Below are positions 2,874-8,174 of a DNA stretch of 8,174 bases, piece by piece. The first letter of the stretch is position 1, and the number at the start of each line of letters is the position of its first letter. The position numbers were made by a program, and so were the translations under genes. This DNA comes from a bacterium (lineage in GTDB: Bacteria > SM23-31 > JAUVVT01). The stretch covers positions 1-8,174 of the forward strand of contig JAUWXV010000164.1 in the NCBI GenBank assembly GCA_030616165.1. The letters run 5' to 3'. The notes under the pieces were generated by a model. The model was not told the DNA's origin. It worked only from the letters and a program-made list of their open reading frames with translations, and did not search any database.

Positions 2874-3527
2874 TCAAATAATACAAGTAATTTCAAAATG
2901 AAGTTTTTCACTGCTCCCTTCTGGAGAAATCTCCTTATAGGGTTTTACCCTTGAAAAAAAAGCAGTATTTTCGAGACGCACCATAAAATCTGCTAAAAAC
3001 ATTCCGGAATTAAAATCCGTGTTGTTTACATATCCAGTGATTATAACATTATTTGGAGAAATATTGACATCATTTATCGTTATGTATTCAGGAGTTATAT
3101 TACTTAAGATTTTCATTACTCCAACAACATCTGCTGTCTCAGTAATGCCAGTAATCTGAGACATAAAATAATCCTTCTCATTCTCAAGAGCACTTTTTTG
3201 ATTTTTAAGCCTATCATAATCCTTGAGTATTGGATAAACACTGCCGCTGTAAAGATTAATTTGGCTTAATCTTTTTTCAAAATCAGATTTATTTTTAAAT
3301 ATCATTATGGAGAAGATTCCAAGAACAAACAGAATAAAAATAGAAGCAAGTTTAAATTTTATTTTTTCTTTTACTTTACTCTTTTCTACATTGCCAGGAG
3401 ACAGAATAGCCCTTTCCTCTTCTTCGGAGAGGTGAATGGAAATTTCCTTTTCTTCTGGCTCTACCTCTTTCCCTCTCAACACCTCAAGCAGCCTATCGGT
3501 TGCTAACTCTTTATTCTTATTATGCAT
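2874..3527 (-). CDS. pilN: PilN-like type IV pilus inner-membrane protein
   Basis: About 217 residues from the chosen ATG. The layout is an unusually long, charged cytoplasmic tail (about residues 1-55, with EEKEISIHLSEEEERAI), a single membrane segment (about 59-77, FKLASIFILFVLGIFSIMIF), a coiled coil (YDRLKNQKSALENEKDYF), and a periplasmic ferredoxin-like domain (VVGVMKILSNITPEYITINDV, NVIITGYVNNTDF, MVRLENTAFF). This matches PilN, which binds PilM through its tail in canonical systems and pairs with PilO. A GTG at 3545 would add MKRSIG, but that sequence lies in a duplicated copy of the upstream ATPase-gene end (3519-3545 repeats 3593-3619) and has no Shine-Dalgarno. The ATG at 3527 has AAGAGG nine bases before it and matches the presumed ancestral start. 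The C-terminus abuts pilO. Confidence 0.87.
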   Translation of the reverse strand: MHNKNKELATDRLLEVLRGKEVEPEEKEISIHLSEEEERAILSPGNVEKSKVKEKIKFKLASIFILFVLGIFSIMIFKNKSDFEKRLSQINLYSGSVYPILKDYDRLKNQKSALENEKDYFMSQITGITETADVVGVMKILSNITPEYITINDVNISPNNVIITGYVNNTDFNSGMFLADFMVRLENTAFFSRVKPYKEISPEGSSEKLHFEITCII

Positions 3528-3619
3528 GCCAATCGACCTCTTCACTTTTATGTAGGGGCGACCCGCTGGGTCGTCCCTCCTGATTCATTACCATTATGCA
3601 TGCCAATTAATCTCTTCAC
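3519..3619. mobile_element. Hairpin element insertion flanked by 27-bp direct repeats
   Basis: The segments 3519-3545 and 3593-3619 are imperfect direct repeats of 27 bases with three mismatches; both share ATTATGCATGCCAAT and CTCTTCAC. Between them lie 47 bases (3546-3592) holding a GTAGGGGCG unit with an 11-bp stem, AGGGGCGACCC, loop GCT, GGGTCGTCCCT, with one wobble. The left copy contains the pilN start and the right copy contains the ATPase stop. Removing the 74-base duplication plus insert would restore an 8-base overlap (ATGCATAA) between the ATPase stop and the pilN start. The simplest reading is insertion of a small hairpin element with target duplication. Duplication during break repair is an alternative. 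Confidence 0.7.
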
Positions 3620-4421
3620 GAACAAGTGATAAAACTAACTTTTCATCAACAATTTTTTTATTACTTCTTAACATAGCAATGAGAGAATTGTGACACAAAA
3701 CAGTTATCCTTCTCGGAAAACCCTGTGTGTGAATATAAATCTGTTTTAATGCTTTGTCAGTAAAAAGGATTCTCTCGGAATTGGAACTCGCCATCTTCAA
3801 TCGGAAATTTATCAAACCTATGGTATCCTTTTCATTAAGGGGATTTATCACATATCCCATAGTAACCCGGTCAAGGAAATTGGGCTGACGCTTCATCTTC
3901 TGAAGGAATTCCGGCTGAGCAAATATTATCAGTTGAAGTAACTTATATTCGTTGGTCTCATAGTTTAAAAGTGTCCTTAAAACTTCAACGTATGTTGGTG
4001 TCAGTTTCTGACCCTCGTCAATAATTAATATTACAATTTTCTTTTCTTTAATCCCTTTCCCAAGAAGATATTTCTCGAGTTCGTTCTTATGTTCAAATGA
4101 AGAGCGTGCAGATGTCTCTATTCCAAATGAGGTTGTAAGATTCTTTATGAATTCGAATTCAGACTTAAAAGTTGGGTCGAGTATTAATCGCACAATAAAA
4201 TTTGACTTTTCTTTTGCAAATTTTTGAATCAAAAGCCTGCTAACAGTGGTTTTGCCGGTTCCCACATCCCCAAGGATTACAGAAAGCCCCCTCCTTAACC
4301 TGATGGCAATTTCAAGCCTGTTCATACATTCCCGATGCTCTCGGGAATAATAAAAAAATGCGGGGTCAGGAGAGGTCGAAAAAGGTTCGTTTCTTAAACC
4401 TAATAACTTATAATAATCCAT
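3594..4421 (-). CDS. ExeA/GspA-like AAA ATPase of the pilus operon
   Basis: A 275-residue P-loop ATPase of the ExeA/GspA family. The family signature opens the protein (YYKLLGLRNEPFSTSPDPAF, then YYSREHRECMNRL). Walker A is GDVGTGKTT (51-59), Walker B is VILIIDEGQ (130-138), the sensor region is LLQLIIFAQPEF (161-172), and the terminal GFPRRI (234-239) is the usual C-terminal motif. Aeromonas ExeA is about twice as long because it also has a membrane segment and a peptidoglycan-binding domain; this protein stops after the ATPase, so it should be cytoplasmic. ExeA acts in placing the secretin; a comparable role in PilQ assembly or in energising the inner-membrane complex is inference. It sits where pilM is expected. 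Its ATG is preceded by AGGAG eight bases upstream and overlaps the end of the MerR gene by 14 bases, which suggests translational coupling. Its end carries the repeated 27-bp segment. Confidence 0.88.
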   Translation of the reverse strand: MDYYKLLGLRNEPFSTSPDPAFFYYSREHRECMNRLEIAIRLRRGLSVILGDVGTGKTTVSRLLIQKFAKEKSNFIVRLILDPTFKSEFEFIKNLTTSFGIETSARSSFEHKNELEKYLLGKGIKEKKIVILIIDEGQKLTPTYVEVLRTLLNYETNEYKLLQLIIFAQPEFLQKMKRQPNFLDRVTMGYVINPLNEKDTIGLINFRLKMASSNSERILFTDKALKQIYIHTQGFPRRITVLCHNSLIAMLRSNKKIVDEKLVLSLVREEINWHA

Positions 4422-4641
4422 TCTTTTTTCTCCTGAAGATTTCTTTTATGGGTACTCTTTCTAATCTTAATTTTTTTATCTTTTCAAGTTGTTGCAATGT
4501 TTGGTCAATAAAATATCTGTAATTACTTCCTTCACTTCTTGAAACCTCTTCAATCAGCCCAATTCTCAAATAATAATTCAAAGTATCAATTGACAATTCA
4601 CTCAACCTTGCTAAATCACCGATAAGATAAATCTTTTCCAT
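4408..4641 (-). CDS. Short MerR-family transcriptional regulator
   Basis: A 77-residue protein made almost only of a MerR-type winged helix-turn-helix: YLIGDLARLSELSIDTLNYY (helix-turn-helix, about residues 5-24), then the wing GLIEEVSRSEGSNYRYF with the family pattern of GLI, R and YRYF, and a helix QTLQQLEKIKKLRLERVPIKEI. The usual effector-binding domain is missing, so metal or drug sensing is unlikely; the protein ends in RRKKNGLL. Short MerR proteins of this kind can act as dimeric DNA-binding proteins. It is the first gene of the pilus operon and overlaps the ATPase gene by 14 bases. A three-half-site operator candidate lies 40 to 89 bases upstream of its ATG, suggesting autoregulation of the whole operon (inference). 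The start is supported by GAAGG just upstream of the ATG. Confidence 0.85.
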   Translation of the reverse strand: MEKIYLIGDLARLSELSIDTLNYYLRIGLIEEVSRSEGSNYRYFIDQTLQQLEKIKKLRLERVPIKEIFRRKKNGLL

Positions 4642-4680
4642 AATACCTTCTTGCTATTCTAAATAGGGAGTAGAAAATTT

Positions 4681-4730
4681 ATATTACTCAATGGTTTCAT
4701 ATATTACTCAATAGTTATTGAGTAATATAT
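4681..4730. promoter_or_regulatory. Operator candidate: three ATATTACTCAAT half-sites
   Basis: A perfect inverted repeat with 15-bp arms and a 2-bp centre occupies 4699-4730 (ATATATTACTCAATA, GT, then the complement). A third half-site, ATATTACTCAAT, lies at 4681-4692 in the same orientation as that at 4701-4712, exactly 20 bases or about two helical turns away. There is no T-run and no upstream gene to terminate, so this looks like a binding site rather than a terminator. The adjacent MerR-type regulator is the obvious candidate binder. On the minus strand the sites also supply TTGAGT (4711-4706) and TAATAT (4686-4681) with a 19-base spacer, the stretched spacing typical of MerR-controlled promoters. 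Confidence 0.65.
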
Positions 4731-4735
4731 AATTA

Positions 4736-4764: not shown

Positions 4765-4953
4765 GAAATTTTTATATTTTTTTTAAAATCTTTCCCAAAA
4801 AAATAACCTCCTTCTGAATTATTGTGATAATTAACTAATCACCCATTCACCAAATAAAACATAAAAATCGCTTTGAAAATTCACTCTAATTTGTTATTTT
4901 ATAAAGCAAAAATGCATATTTGAGGCATTGAATATGAAACGAGGTAAGGGTAA
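4765..4953. other. AT-rich intergenic stretch without a gene
   Basis: Between the operon promoter and the inverted-repeat element there is no supported gene. On the plus strand there is a weak TTGAAA box at 4873-4878, a GAGG at 4922-4925, and an ATG at 4934 that opens a 12-codon frame ending inside the left terminal repeat of the element. This could be the stump of a gene cut by the insertion, or chance. Confidence 0.5.
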
Positions 4954-5218
4954 TTCGGGGACACAATACTAATTATTCCTGGTTTTTAGCTTGAATTTCG
5001 GACCACGTTTCCGATGTAGAAGCATACGTACAAAGTAGGAAGTACGAATGACGAATTGGGAATAGGCAATGGGTAAGAGGCAATAGGAAAAACGAATTAT
5101 GAATTGGGACAAGAATTCTGGACTGAGTGCATAATGCTGATGAGCGTATCCAATCGTGCTATGTTAAAATGTATGATTTTCTGAGTATGTTGTCAATAAT
5201 TAGTATTGTGTCCTAGAA
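4954..5218. mobile_element. MITE-like element with 24-bp terminal inverted repeats
   Basis: The ends 4954-4977 and 5195-5218 are inverted repeats of 24 bases with two mismatches, including a perfect 19-bp core GGACACAATACTAATTATT. The 265-base unit has no coding frame. Its middle carries degenerate direct repeats of the GAATTGGG / GGCAATGGG / GGCAATAGG kind (about 5055-5110). A short non-coding body between good inverted repeats is the plan of a miniature non-autonomous transposable element. From memory, GGGGACACAATAC-type ends occur near transposase genes in other genomes, but I cannot confirm the family here. No clear target-site duplication is visible. The right end touches the conserved GTT of the last attC. 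Confidence 0.65.
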
Positions 5219-5301
5219 CGCCCAGGGTAACCAGCGGCGTCAAAAGACTTGCAAGTAAAACCACAGCGTTTCTCGCCGTCTGGTTGATACTTTTGTTATG
5301 C
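5217..5301 (-). repeat. attC recombination site of the 201-residue cassette gene (last in array)
   Basis: Reading on the minus strand, the R'' core is GCATAAC (5301-5295), five bases after the gene stop. The inner arm AACCAGACGGCG pairs with CGCCGCTGGTT, leaving one unpaired A; such extrahelical bases are the hallmark of folded attC sites. The R' end is GGGCGTT (GTT at 5219-5217). The site is 85 bases long. The bases after GTT (CTAGGACAC) are not those of a normal R' box but the end of the inverted-repeat element. Confidence 0.8.
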
Positions 5302-5305
5302 AATT

Positions 5306-5911
5306 TCAGTTTTCCCTATTTAAACGATTCCACATTATATCGTCATATTGAGTGGGGAAAATATCGTTATTAAAATTCTTTTTTATGTCTAATATGATAA
5401 GTTTTTGAAGTTTTTCATATGTGCTTTCGTCTATTTGCTCTACTGTTTTCGACAATATATTCTCATTAGGGAATGACTTCTTCAAATGTTTTAGAATTGG
5501 AATGTCAATAGCGGTATTTAAAAAAGGTAATATTGTCTTTGCTGTTCGCATGTTCGGCAAACTTGAATAGTAGACATAGACTTTTAGCGAAACGTCGAGT
5601 AGCTTTGCTGCATGACCATATAGGGCATAACCCGATTTTTTGATGATTTTATTATTTCTTTCTTTTTGTGCTGTTTTAATATTGCTTGCAAACCAATTAC
5701 AGAATCCCTTATGAAATGCCTGAAATTCTGTAATATTTTTTATATTTTCCAACGTTTGAAATTCTACGTGCAATTTGCCAGCAATTTTTGGTTTTGATTC
5801 TTTTTCAAACAAGCGAATCATAGCTGTAAATGTCAAAGCCATATCAATGACATTTTTCTGTTTTATCTCAGCCGTAATATATGAATTTTCTGTATTCATA
5901 TTTTTACACAT
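5306..5911 (-). CDS. Cassette-encoded protein of unknown function
   Basis: A 201-residue protein that I do not recognise. It has no signal peptide or clear membrane segment. It looks mostly alpha-helical and is rich in Lys, Ile and Asn. Notable stretches are FQAFHKGFCNWFASNIKTAQ, GYALYGHAAKLLDVSLKVYV and TILPFLNTAIDIPILKHLKK. The first ATG lies inside the R' box of the preceding attC (GTTATG), as is common for cassette genes; an alternative ATG four codons later at 5899 (MNTENSYI) is equally possible, and neither has a Shine-Dalgarno. It forms a cassette of its own (about 5219-5913) between two attC sites. It is more AT-rich than the SIR2 gene before it, in keeping with independent origins of cassettes. 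No function is proposed. Confidence 0.75.
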   Translation of the reverse strand: MCKNMNTENSYITAEIKQKNVIDMALTFTAMIRLFEKESKPKIAGKLHVEFQTLENIKNITEFQAFHKGFCNWFASNIKTAQKERNNKIIKKSGYALYGHAAKLLDVSLKVYVYYSSLPNMRTAKTILPFLNTAIDIPILKHLKKSFPNENILSKTVEQIDESTYEKLQKLIILDIKKNFNNDIFPTQYDDIMWNRLNREN

Positions 5912-5977
5912 AACGCCGAACTCGCCAGCAGCGAGGGACGCCAGGCCCTTGCCGTCAGGTGCAGTGATATGTTGGCC
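5908..5977 (-). repeat. attC recombination site of the SIR2 cassette
   Basis: On the minus strand the R'' core GGCCAAC (5977-5971) overlaps the last base of the SIR2 stop codon. The R' box is GTTATGT (5914-5908), preceded by GGC. The site is 70 bases long. Its inner arms (CACTGCACCTGACGG against GAACTCGCCAGCAGCG on the other side) pair only imperfectly by eye, and CTCGC-TGCTG-GCGAG forms an extra small hairpin. The cassette starts with TTGGCA, which matches its own R'' complement (TTGGCC) at five of six bases. Confidence 0.7.
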
Positions 5978-7134
5978 TATTTTGAGAAGATTTTATCAAT
6001 AGCCTCCATATTGAAACCGCTCATATGCAAATGTGCCTTATTAAAATCTACGAAACGATAATCCTTTTTGAATTCATTATGTTCGTCTTTTGTAGTTTTG
6101 TAATCAACAAATACCAATGGATTCTTTTTACGACCAAAAACCTCTTCATCCCAGTATGCTTCTTGATAATTCTTAACCAAAGAATATATGGTTTGTCTTG
6201 CATAGATATCATGGAATGGTAGAGAGTATCCAATTATCGCCATTCCAAAATTTAGACATCCAGCTACACCAAGCCCATTCCAAAAATCGCCAAGCGCACT
6301 TGCGTAGACAATTTTATTTGTAGATGGAGACAGTATCCATGGGGTTGTAAAAAACATTATTTGCTGCTTGTAGAGCCCTTCAACGTTTGCAGCCCTATAC
6401 ATATTCAATAAGGGATCATTATCATGTCGAGGTCCATCAAGTATTTTAGTCAGGCCCCAATCAATCCTGCCATTAAACACAGGGTGATTTGGTAGTGAAT
6501 TAACTCCTTGTTCTTTATAAGTTTTTACATATTCAAGGTATTGGCTTTTGTCAAACCAGTCTATCGAGCCATGCAATTTTAGTATTATTACCTCATCTTT
6601 GCTTGAATCGATTATGCCACTATAACTCGATACTGATTTGAAACGGTTAGGGAAAAGTCGATATGGCTTTCCAATTGCATCTAGCGAACGTTCTAAAAGA
6701 ATATCGTAGTTGAAGGTGAGAACGTAGTCATTAGGTCTTAGACGGCGAGCGAACTCAAGATAAAGTTCAGGAATCTTGTCAGGAGAAGGCATGTGCTGGG
6801 CTAGAATTTTTCCTATTAAAGTCTTTACAACCACTTGGCCCTCATTACCATCCCTGCTCCAAGTATCTCCCCCTCGTAATCCAAGATAGTGCTCAATATC
6901 CAAATAGCCCAAGAATTCTTCAAAATTTAGAGTATCGCGAGACAGATTTATTCCATCGCAATCTCGACGATATTCAATATATGCGTCAATATCTTCTCTA
7001 AGCATGCCAGCTCGCCCGCAAAGCGTTTTACTTCTATTAAGAATCTGCTCCCAAAGTTCATCTCCAAGTGGAAGACCAGCGGGCTTGGAAAAACCAGCTC
7101 CTAATATTATTACCCTATATTTTTTCTCTGTCAT
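5977..7134 (-). CDS. SIR2-domain protein (SIR2_2 type), probable NAD-consuming defence protein
   Basis: A 385-residue protein with the motifs of the bacterial SIR2-like family. An N-terminal nucleotide-binding loop reads IILGAGFSKPAGLPLGDEL (9-27). LTFNYD (139-144) holds the conserved Asn and Asp; KLHGSIDW (186-193) holds the conserved His188; and IIGYSLPFHD (300-309) is the final family signature. Proteins of this type act in several anti-phage systems (Thoeris ThsA, DSR, SIR2-HerA, Avs-linked SIR2) by degrading NAD+ when infection is sensed, which kills or stops the cell. Here the domain fills nearly the whole chain and there is no obvious second effector or sensor domain. The start has AAGGGA 11 bases upstream. 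The gene forms a single integron cassette (about 5914-7168). Defence is inferred from the family and setting; the NADase activity rests on the intact motifs. I am sure of the domain, less sure of the role. Confidence 0.88.
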   Translation of the reverse strand: MTEKKYRVIILGAGFSKPAGLPLGDELWEQILNRSKTLCGRAGMLREDIDAYIEYRRDCDGINLSRDTLNFEEFLGYLDIEHYLGLRGGDTWSRDGNEGQVVVKTLIGKILAQHMPSPDKIPELYLEFARRLRPNDYVLTFNYDILLERSLDAIGKPYRLFPNRFKSVSSYSGIIDSSKDEVIILKLHGSIDWFDKSQYLEYVKTYKEQGVNSLPNHPVFNGRIDWGLTKILDGPRHDNDPLLNMYRAANVEGLYKQQIMFFTTPWILSPSTNKIVYASALGDFWNGLGVAGCLNFGMAIIGYSLPFHDIYARQTIYSLVKNYQEAYWDEEVFGRKKNPLVFVDYKTTKDEHNEFKKDYRFVDFNKAHLHMSGFNMEAIDKIFSK

Positions 7135-7162
7135 TGAGTTTTATTTCCCTTGGCAATATGAG

Positions 7163-7223
7163 TGCCAATGCCGAGTTGACCGGCAGGTTCTCCTGTATAA
7201 TGGTCGCTTGCGGCTGGTTATGC
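7163..7223 (-). repeat. attC recombination site of the nuclease-like cassette
   Basis: On the minus strand the R'' core GGCATAAC (7224-7217) contains the stop codon of the nuclease gene. Inner arms include GCCG and GACC, which pair with GGTC and CGGC across an internal loop. The R' box reads ATTGGCA (7169-7163), where GTTRRRY is expected, so the G at the cut position is an A. At 61 bases it is close to the shortest known attC sites. The match of this R'' to TTATGCC at the start of the same cassette (7713-7707) is exact, as expected if both ends were once joined in a circular cassette. Confidence 0.7.
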
Positions 7224-7694
7224 CTCGCTTTCATCTGCTAAAATGGTTCCCCATTCGGGTGTCTCTATCAATTTTAGGCCTTCTTCATCAAAAAATTTCA
7301 CAAAAGCTGGCCGCTTAACTGGTTTCTCACTTTCATACTTAGCGGGCTGGCATCTATAGCCACGAGAATGTGTTTTTATAATAGAAAGCGGGGTATAAGC
7401 TACGAACACCGGATATTCTGGAACAGCTAAGGAATAATATGGAATCGCTAAAACCATATTAGGGTGAATCTTGCTTAATTTTCCAACGAACCCATAAATA
7501 GGATTATTCTTTTTTCCGGAAGTTGGGTATTTACCTTTTACTTGAACGGGCCTAATAGTTTCGCCTTCCCCTGCAACATACTTTGAGACTATGAAATCAA
7601 AGCCTTCATCTCTATGCGGGAAATACACATTCCAACCGGCATTAGCGAATCTTCCAGCTACATGCAGTTCTGCGGAATAGTCAGTTACTTTCAT
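7218..7694 (-). CDS. Small PD-(D/E)XK nuclease-like cassette protein
   Basis: A 158-residue protein whose first 55 residues look like a PD-(D/E)XK nuclease core: SAELHVAGRFANAGWNVYFP (Glu9 on the first helix), then HRDEGFDFIV (Asp33), then the beta-strand motif RPVQVKGKY with Gln51 and Lys53. The E, D, QxK order is typical of restriction-endonuclease-like and DUF4365-like domains. The rest (NPIYGFVGKLSKIHPNMVLAIPYYSLAVPEYPVFVAYTP) looks like the following strands of the same fold, with a Lys- and Pro-rich tail. The assignment is by motif only and could be wrong about activity. It is encoded in its own cassette (about 7169-7713). The ATG has no Shine-Dalgarno, and its stop codon lies inside the attC R'' box. 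Possible roles are a restriction-like or defence nuclease, alone or with the next-door SIR2 protein. Confidence 0.7.
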   Translation of the reverse strand: MKVTDYSAELHVAGRFANAGWNVYFPHRDEGFDFIVSKYVAGEGETIRPVQVKGKYPTSGKKNNPIYGFVGKLSKIHPNMVLAIPYYSLAVPEYPVFVAYTPLSIIKTHSRGYRCQPAKYESEKPVKRPAFVKFFDEEGLKLIETPEWGTILADESEA

Positions 7695-7707: not shown

Positions 7708-7796
7708 GCATAACGTTGAAGTGAGCAGCAGCACCAAAAAGCCTACCCGATAAGGGCGCAGTGCTACTCGCTGTCCGCTCAACTGATTTGTTACAC
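7708..7796 (-). repeat. attC recombination site of the protease-like cassette
   Basis: On the minus strand the R'' core is GTGTAAC (7796-7790), 27 bases after the gene stop. The outer arm GTTGAGCGGACAGCG pairs with the complement of GCTGCTGCTCACTTCAAC, leaving unpaired bases. The R' box GTTATGC (7714-7708) fits the GTT-purine-rich pattern well. The length is 89 bases. It is the best-formed attC of the window together with that at 5217-5301. Confidence 0.8.
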
Positions 7797-7823: not shown

Positions 7824-8174
7824 TTATCCCTCTTTTAATATCCTTTCCGTCCAGTCGGTAAGTAGATTAGCCAAAACTGGCAATGAGCATCCGAAAGTAA
7901 TTCTACGAGTCTTTAGCCAGGCACTTTGAATAGCCACAATCCAATACCGCATTGGAGGGCCATGATTAAAACCGAAAATTGGACCACCGCTCATCCCGAC
8001 AATACTATCAAGAGGCATGTCAGGGTCCAATTGACCAATAAAACGAGAATATTTCGTCTTTTTTATGTTTTCTGGTGGAGAAGCCAGTTTTTGCACACTT
8101 ATCAAGGTCGGTGATACTGATCCCAGCGTCTGCAAATTTTGATCAGCCTCACTATGGATTGTAGTAATAAATTC
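7824..8174 (-). CDS. Trypsin-like serine protease domain protein, C-terminal part (cut by window edge)
   Basis: The frame is open to the right window edge, so only the last 116 residues are seen. The core motif SIVGMSGGPIFGF (57-69 of the visible part) contains the G-x-SGGP signature around the catalytic Ser62 of chymotrypsin-fold proteases, followed by YWIVAIQSAW, a strand that usually follows the active-site loop, and a helical end PVLANLLTDWTERIL. The His and Asp of the triad would be upstream, outside the window. It resembles trypsin-like peptidase domain proteins (HtrA/trypsin_2 fold) without a PDZ domain at the C-terminus. A TTG at 8135 could be mistaken for a start, but 13 more in-frame codons (EFITTIHSEADQN) precede it. 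It is the first visible cassette of the array, followed by an attC. Its substrate is unknown. Confidence 0.75.
   Translation of the reverse strand, partial: EFITTIHSEADQNLQTLGSVSPTLISVQKLASPPENIKKTKYSRFIGQLDPDMPLDSIVGMSGGPIFGFNHGPPMRYWIVAIQSAWLKTRRITFGCSLPVLANLLTDWTERILKEG

Follow-up and report, generated by a model that had tools for sequence, protein, structure and literature searches.

How a cassette array comes to end flush against a transposon is the question raised by contig C311, whose entire 8174 bp (the window) were analysed here and which is one of 343 contigs of an assembly that is 90% complete. The last attC of the array is directly followed by an inverted-repeat element. In a preliminary description of the sequence, two origins were proposed for this arrangement: precise insertion of the element at the attC, as some attC-targeting elements do, or insertion of a cassette by an integrase, with the end of the element as secondary site. 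The features of the locus are collected in Table 1.

Table 1. Features of the window on which the analysis is based, with positions, strand and basis of assignment.
Feature	Position	Strand	Basis or remark
MerR-type regulator, heads the pilus gene cluster beside the element	4408..4641	-	Context; orthologous locus in G001, G004 and G002
Left (3') TIR, complete, TAATTCGGGGACACAATACTAATTATT	4951..4977	+	Fits family consensus W-A-A-T-T-C-G-G-GGACAC
Miniature, internally deleted TIRYT/RAYT-type (Y1, HUH) element, 265 bp	4954..5218	- (transposase sense)	Inverted arms; end copies genome-wide; C24 copy
Right (5') TIR, TTCTAGGACACAATACTAATTATT	5195..5218	-	Outer WAA missing, GG replaced by TA; sole case among ~65 genuine ends in which -7 is not A
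Last attC of the array	5213..5301	-	R'' 5295-5301 GCATAAC; R' 5213-5219 GTTCTAG; crossover point 5219/5218
Last-cassette ORF, 201 aa	5306..5911	-	No family found
attC	5907..5977	-	Common fold and extrahelical A
SIR2-like cassette ORF, 385 aa	5977..7134	-	PF13289 above cut-off; PADLOC SIR2 models
Degenerate attC, approximate limits	7163..7228	-	Read from sequence; missed by attC model
Cassette ORF, 158 aa	7218..7694	-	No family found
attC	7708..7796	-	Common fold and extrahelical A
Partial cassette ORF, runs off contig	7824..8174	-	GMSGGP motif, read by eye

Composition of the array

The array comprises three clear attC sites and a degenerate one, and its short ORFs all run in one direction. 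The clear sites can be aligned over L''/L' and R''/R', and a single extrahelical A is common to all three. A covariance model was built from these sites and recovers them by construction. Outside this training set, the model matched two further places in the same genome: C233:11665-11726 (E = 1.8e-6), a textbook attC, and C204:15423-15494 (E = 0.003), an attC which comes after a TIR-domain gene. Since neither had been used in building the model, the identification of the attC sites is considered sound. The crossover box of the degenerate site (7163-7169, minus strand) reads ATTGGCA in place of GTTRRRY, and this site possibly represents a decayed attC. The motif in the partial ORF suggests that a trypsin-like protease may be encoded at the contig end. 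The heptamer AGGGTAA occurs twice, just outside the left TIR (4947-4953) and inside the last attC (5224-5230), which may be chance. The last-cassette protein had no match when searched against plasmids.

No integron integrase exceeded the TIGR02249 cut-off in the 90%-complete assembly, and the array is therefore best called a CALIN; the contig ends inside the array, which leaves room for an integrase upstream. In common with CALINs, the array has at least two attCs, with short ORFs in one direction; it differs in ending in a transposon TIR and in being interrupted by the contig end. Two fragments on contig C22 (locus L095 of G000, 4410-4686 and 899-1075), one of them with three stops, align with the C-terminal portion of the model for integron integrases and may be relics of tyrosine recombinase genes.

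A family of transposon ends

The inverted arms of the element (4954-4977 and 5195-5218, 24 nt) were 92% complementary in a repeat search. Their two mismatches, GG versus TA, lie just inside the TTC. The 5' end, at 5218, faces the attC, and the transposase-sense strand is the minus strand, as for the cassettes. In a BLAST search of the element against its own genome 43 matches were obtained, nearly all of them to ends. At C24:949-1386, in a copy that starts MARLARVIAPGYPHHVIQRGN, both element ends enclose a decayed Y1 transposase gene, which has kept the MPNHVH motif, exceeded the PF01797 cut-off when the genome was searched, and is a weak match to NF047646, REP-associated tyrosine transposase (E = 0.004). 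Over its 3' 70 bp, the window element shares 90% identity with the 3' end of this copy, and over its 5' 130 bp it shares 85% with C8:1583-1713. On contig C329, an intact REP-type transposase ORF begins 46 bp inside an end (NF047646, E = 2e-17; PF01797 above cut-off).

RAYT-like genes flanked by GGGGWSAS inverted repeats are reported as TIRtrons with TIRYT transposases (PMC3733652, PMC6006769). The left TIR and the family consensus both contain GGGGACAC, which fits GGGGWSAS, and the right TIR reads TAGGACAC. Because the ends fit this motif and the same ends surround a Y1 transposase gene elsewhere in the genome, the window element can be classified as a miniature TIRtron derivative. With TIRtrons (TnpA-REP subclass 2.1, PMC6006769) it shares the GGGGACAC TIRs, the presence of dozens of copies, single as well as clustered, and a REP-type Y1 transposase gene between the same ends; it differs in that the window copy lacks a transposase gene, is shortened in its body and is damaged in the TIR that faces the attC. 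A search of viral contigs for the TIR gave no match.

Nested family TIR ends, the second ~41 bp inside the first, were seen at three loci (L032, 2507-2700; L034, 1846-1933; L036, 952-993), which suggests that one element was inserted at the end of another. On contig C204 (locus L033 of G000, 6331-7495), a solitary cassette-like unit, consisting of a TIR-domain gene with a ThsB-like match and then an attC, is flanked by two TIRtron miniatures, and a nucleotidyltransferase-like gene follows. Taken with the SIR2 cassette of the window, this unit suggests that the cassettes of the lineage include defence-type genes.

To delimit the family, ends were collected by the inner GGACACAATACT motif plus a downstream motif, with no selection on the outer bases. 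The sample consists of 44 5'-type and 22 3'-type ends from the window's genome and one relative, including two evident chance matches. The outer sequence of the ends is W-A-(A/T)-T-T, and every genuine end other than the one at the attC has A at position -7. The left end in the window, GTAATTCGGGG, agrees with W-A-(A/T) outside TTC. At the attC-side end, GGGCG/TTCTAGGACAC (the slash marks the crossover point), TTC agrees with the family, and all bases outside are attC sequence. TTC had initially been described as the start of the terminal repeat; this applies to the attC-side end only, and both the family and the left end in the window carry W-A-(A/T) further out.

Among the 44 5'-type ends, the bases of TTC are found in 42, 41 and 41 cases, respectively. 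The three bases outside the window TTC (G, C and G) occur in 1, 0 and 1, and the TA which replaces GG inside it occurs in 4 (T) and 1 (A). Due to these two departures from the family, TTCTA carries ~0 bits as an element end versus background, so that any argument from TTC alone is weakened; it was rejected as weak. None of the ~64 other genuine ends has lost WAA while keeping GGACAC. Only the outer bases are thus gone from the attC-side end, and the break falls where the integrase crosses over.

Origin of the junction

On the minus strand, the G of the attC box is at 5219 and its TT at 5218-5217; the first T of the element directly follows this G and is the first base past the G/TT cut, which bears out the abutment noticed in the preliminary description. 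The crossover lies at a GNT between G and TT, as at attG or secondary sites, but the G comes from the attC. The fourth R' base at the junction is C, which none of 12 other R boxes from the window's genome and relatives shows (A in 10, G in 2). The DNA after the G is therefore unlike a normal cassette or attI start.

Other junctions of this kind were sought in several ways. None of the ~64 other element ends in the window's genome and one relative abuts an attC. The nearest case is an end at C204:15942, ~450 bp from an attC and separated from it by a gene. In 84,980 species genomes, a set that may not include the records of the window's own genome, a scan for CGTTC-NNN-GACAC(A/C)ATACT-N-ATT yielded no second junction; its sole match lay within a coding region of Prevotella and is put down to chance. 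In the relatives G005 and G006, attCs are present and have no TIRs beside them; in G001, TIRs are present and no attC was called.

Our preferred reading, to which we assign a probability of about 0.5, is that the cassettes were joined by an integron integrase to an element end that already existed and served as a non-classical (secondary, attG-like) site. A miniature TIRYT-type transposon would have been in place upstream of the merR/ATPase pilus genes when an integrase, acting in trans, took its outer TIR end as a site and crossed over just before TTC. A cassette attC would have been joined to the element end, either by cassette insertion or by loss of the DNA that separated the last attC from this site. 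The product would be attC-G/TTC-element, and the outer WAA would have been lost or would now lie on the opposite side of the array. Insertion and deletion give the same junction and are indistinguishable here; the second of the two origins proposed at the outset, insertion at a secondary site, thus fits best, on moderate evidence, in a form that includes deletion.

Cassette insertion at secondary sites was reportedly described by Francia and co-workers in 1993. In the papers that cite Loot et al. 2024 (PMC12901181, PMC12444791), insertion at non-classical attG sites is treated as established. For IntI1, hardly anything beyond GNT is reported to be required of a secondary site (PMC10127599). 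As these insertions are cited (Loot et al. 2024; Francia et al. 1993), the window resembles them in that an attC is joined at G/TT to DNA which is neither attI nor attC; it differs in that its pre-insertion sequence is a reconstruction and in that TTC is expected to be preceded by A or T instead of G. IntI1 secondary sites want G before TT, and in the family G stands there in 1 of 44 ends. This is a real difficulty for the integrase unless the window copy carried G or the enzyme tolerates A or T. The integrase reading is supported by the coincidence of the element breakpoint with the G/TT crossover, by the C after GTT and by the lack of any other genuine end that lost WAA and kept GGACAC. The ~0 bits of TTCTA as an element end and the absence of an integrase above the cut-off from the assembly stand against it.

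It is also possible, and somewhat doubtful, that the coincidence is fortuitous: the array would have ended in other DNA that read CTA directly after G/TT, the TTC would be a chance match, and an element truncated or damaged up to GGACAC would happen to follow, whether or not an integrase made the junction. The low information of TTCTA speaks for this explanation, and so does the fact that TT is supplied by the attC box, which leaves C as the only independent match. In raw likelihood, TTCTA as an element end is favoured 3:1 over an ordinary R box with a truncated element, and is at 0.13:1 against random DNA, which favours chance. A random truncation, however, must stop in exactly the right register; allowing 10-30 positions of free register, the ratios become ~30-100:1 over an ordinary R box with a truncated element and only 1.3-4:1 over arbitrary DNA with a truncated element, all of these being rough weights from small samples. 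The unusual C after GTT argues against chance as well, as does the absence of any comparable truncation among the other genuine ends of the genome.

It is unlikely that a Y1 transposase, acting on a folded or single-stranded site, placed the element at the G/TT of an attC that was already there. The abutment is exact, attC recombination and Y1 transposition both use single strands (PMC6006769), and joining the flanks of TTC...GAA gives GGGCG/TTACCC, which still begins GTTA. Elements of the IS1111 family target one attC end (PMC11187229), and the window likewise has a mobile element at one attC end. The IS1111-attC insertion sequences, however, encode DEDD transposases and hit attCs repeatedly, whereas the window has a Y1-type miniature at an attC once; there is no transposase gene inside the element, and its relatives carry Y1 genes. 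The A at -7 in every other genuine end, whether it is element or target sequence, is absent here, and no further cassette or attC is found beyond the element. The proposal of precise insertion, made by analogy to attC-targeting elements, is accordingly poorly supported: the other genuine ends carry WAA, and neither the end survey nor the genome scan returned a second case for the pattern used. The preliminary description itself had suggested looking for the element at other attC sites, and had named copies never found near attCs as evidence against its proposal; this is what was found.

The pilus locus and wider implications

In G001, G004 and G002, pilin-like genes precede the merR-ATPase pair, with a gap of ~200-300 bp, and comparison of these orthologous loci revealed neither element nor array upstream of merR. 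The pilin-like and TPR proteins preceding the locus in G001 had no match in the window's assembly (90% complete). These genes may have been removed by the event behind the junction, or they may sit on missing sequence. Palindromic repeats TTACTCAATAACTATTGAGTAA upstream of merR (4675-4734) are kept in the same three relatives and look like a putative operator of the adjacent regulator. Further along the pilus cluster, the PilN-like protein (2874-3545, minus strand) has retained an N-terminal KELATDRLLEVLR segment with which the PilM-PilN fusion proteins of G004 and G001 start, and the PilM part of ~400 residues between this segment and PilN is missing; the sole PilM_2 match in the window's genome is a shorter one, on C217. 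Between pilus genes (1440-2260), there are diverged intergenic direct repeats of GTAGGGGCGAACC and TGTCATTCCCACG type with units of 39-88 nt.

If the integrase reading is true, array-free strains should read W-A-N-TTCTAGGACACAATACT, and the upstream edge of the array should be WAN followed by TTRRRY. That the TIR ends of TIRYT/RAYT elements, repeats which are abundant in bacteria and have a fixed (A/T)TTC, act as repeated integrase landing sites and spread cassettes via transposon ends is very improbable.

The kinds involved, i.e. a TIRYT miniature, a CALIN and a secondary-site junction, are already known, and the practical weight of the case is small. The integrase reading is the best of the three, yet unproven, and attC targeting is not supported. 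An element flush with an attC need not be attC-targeting, and comparison of its other copies separates both readings. If an integrase made the junction, this little-studied lineage would show an array without an integrase of its own that ends fused to a transposon end and not in the remains of an attI.
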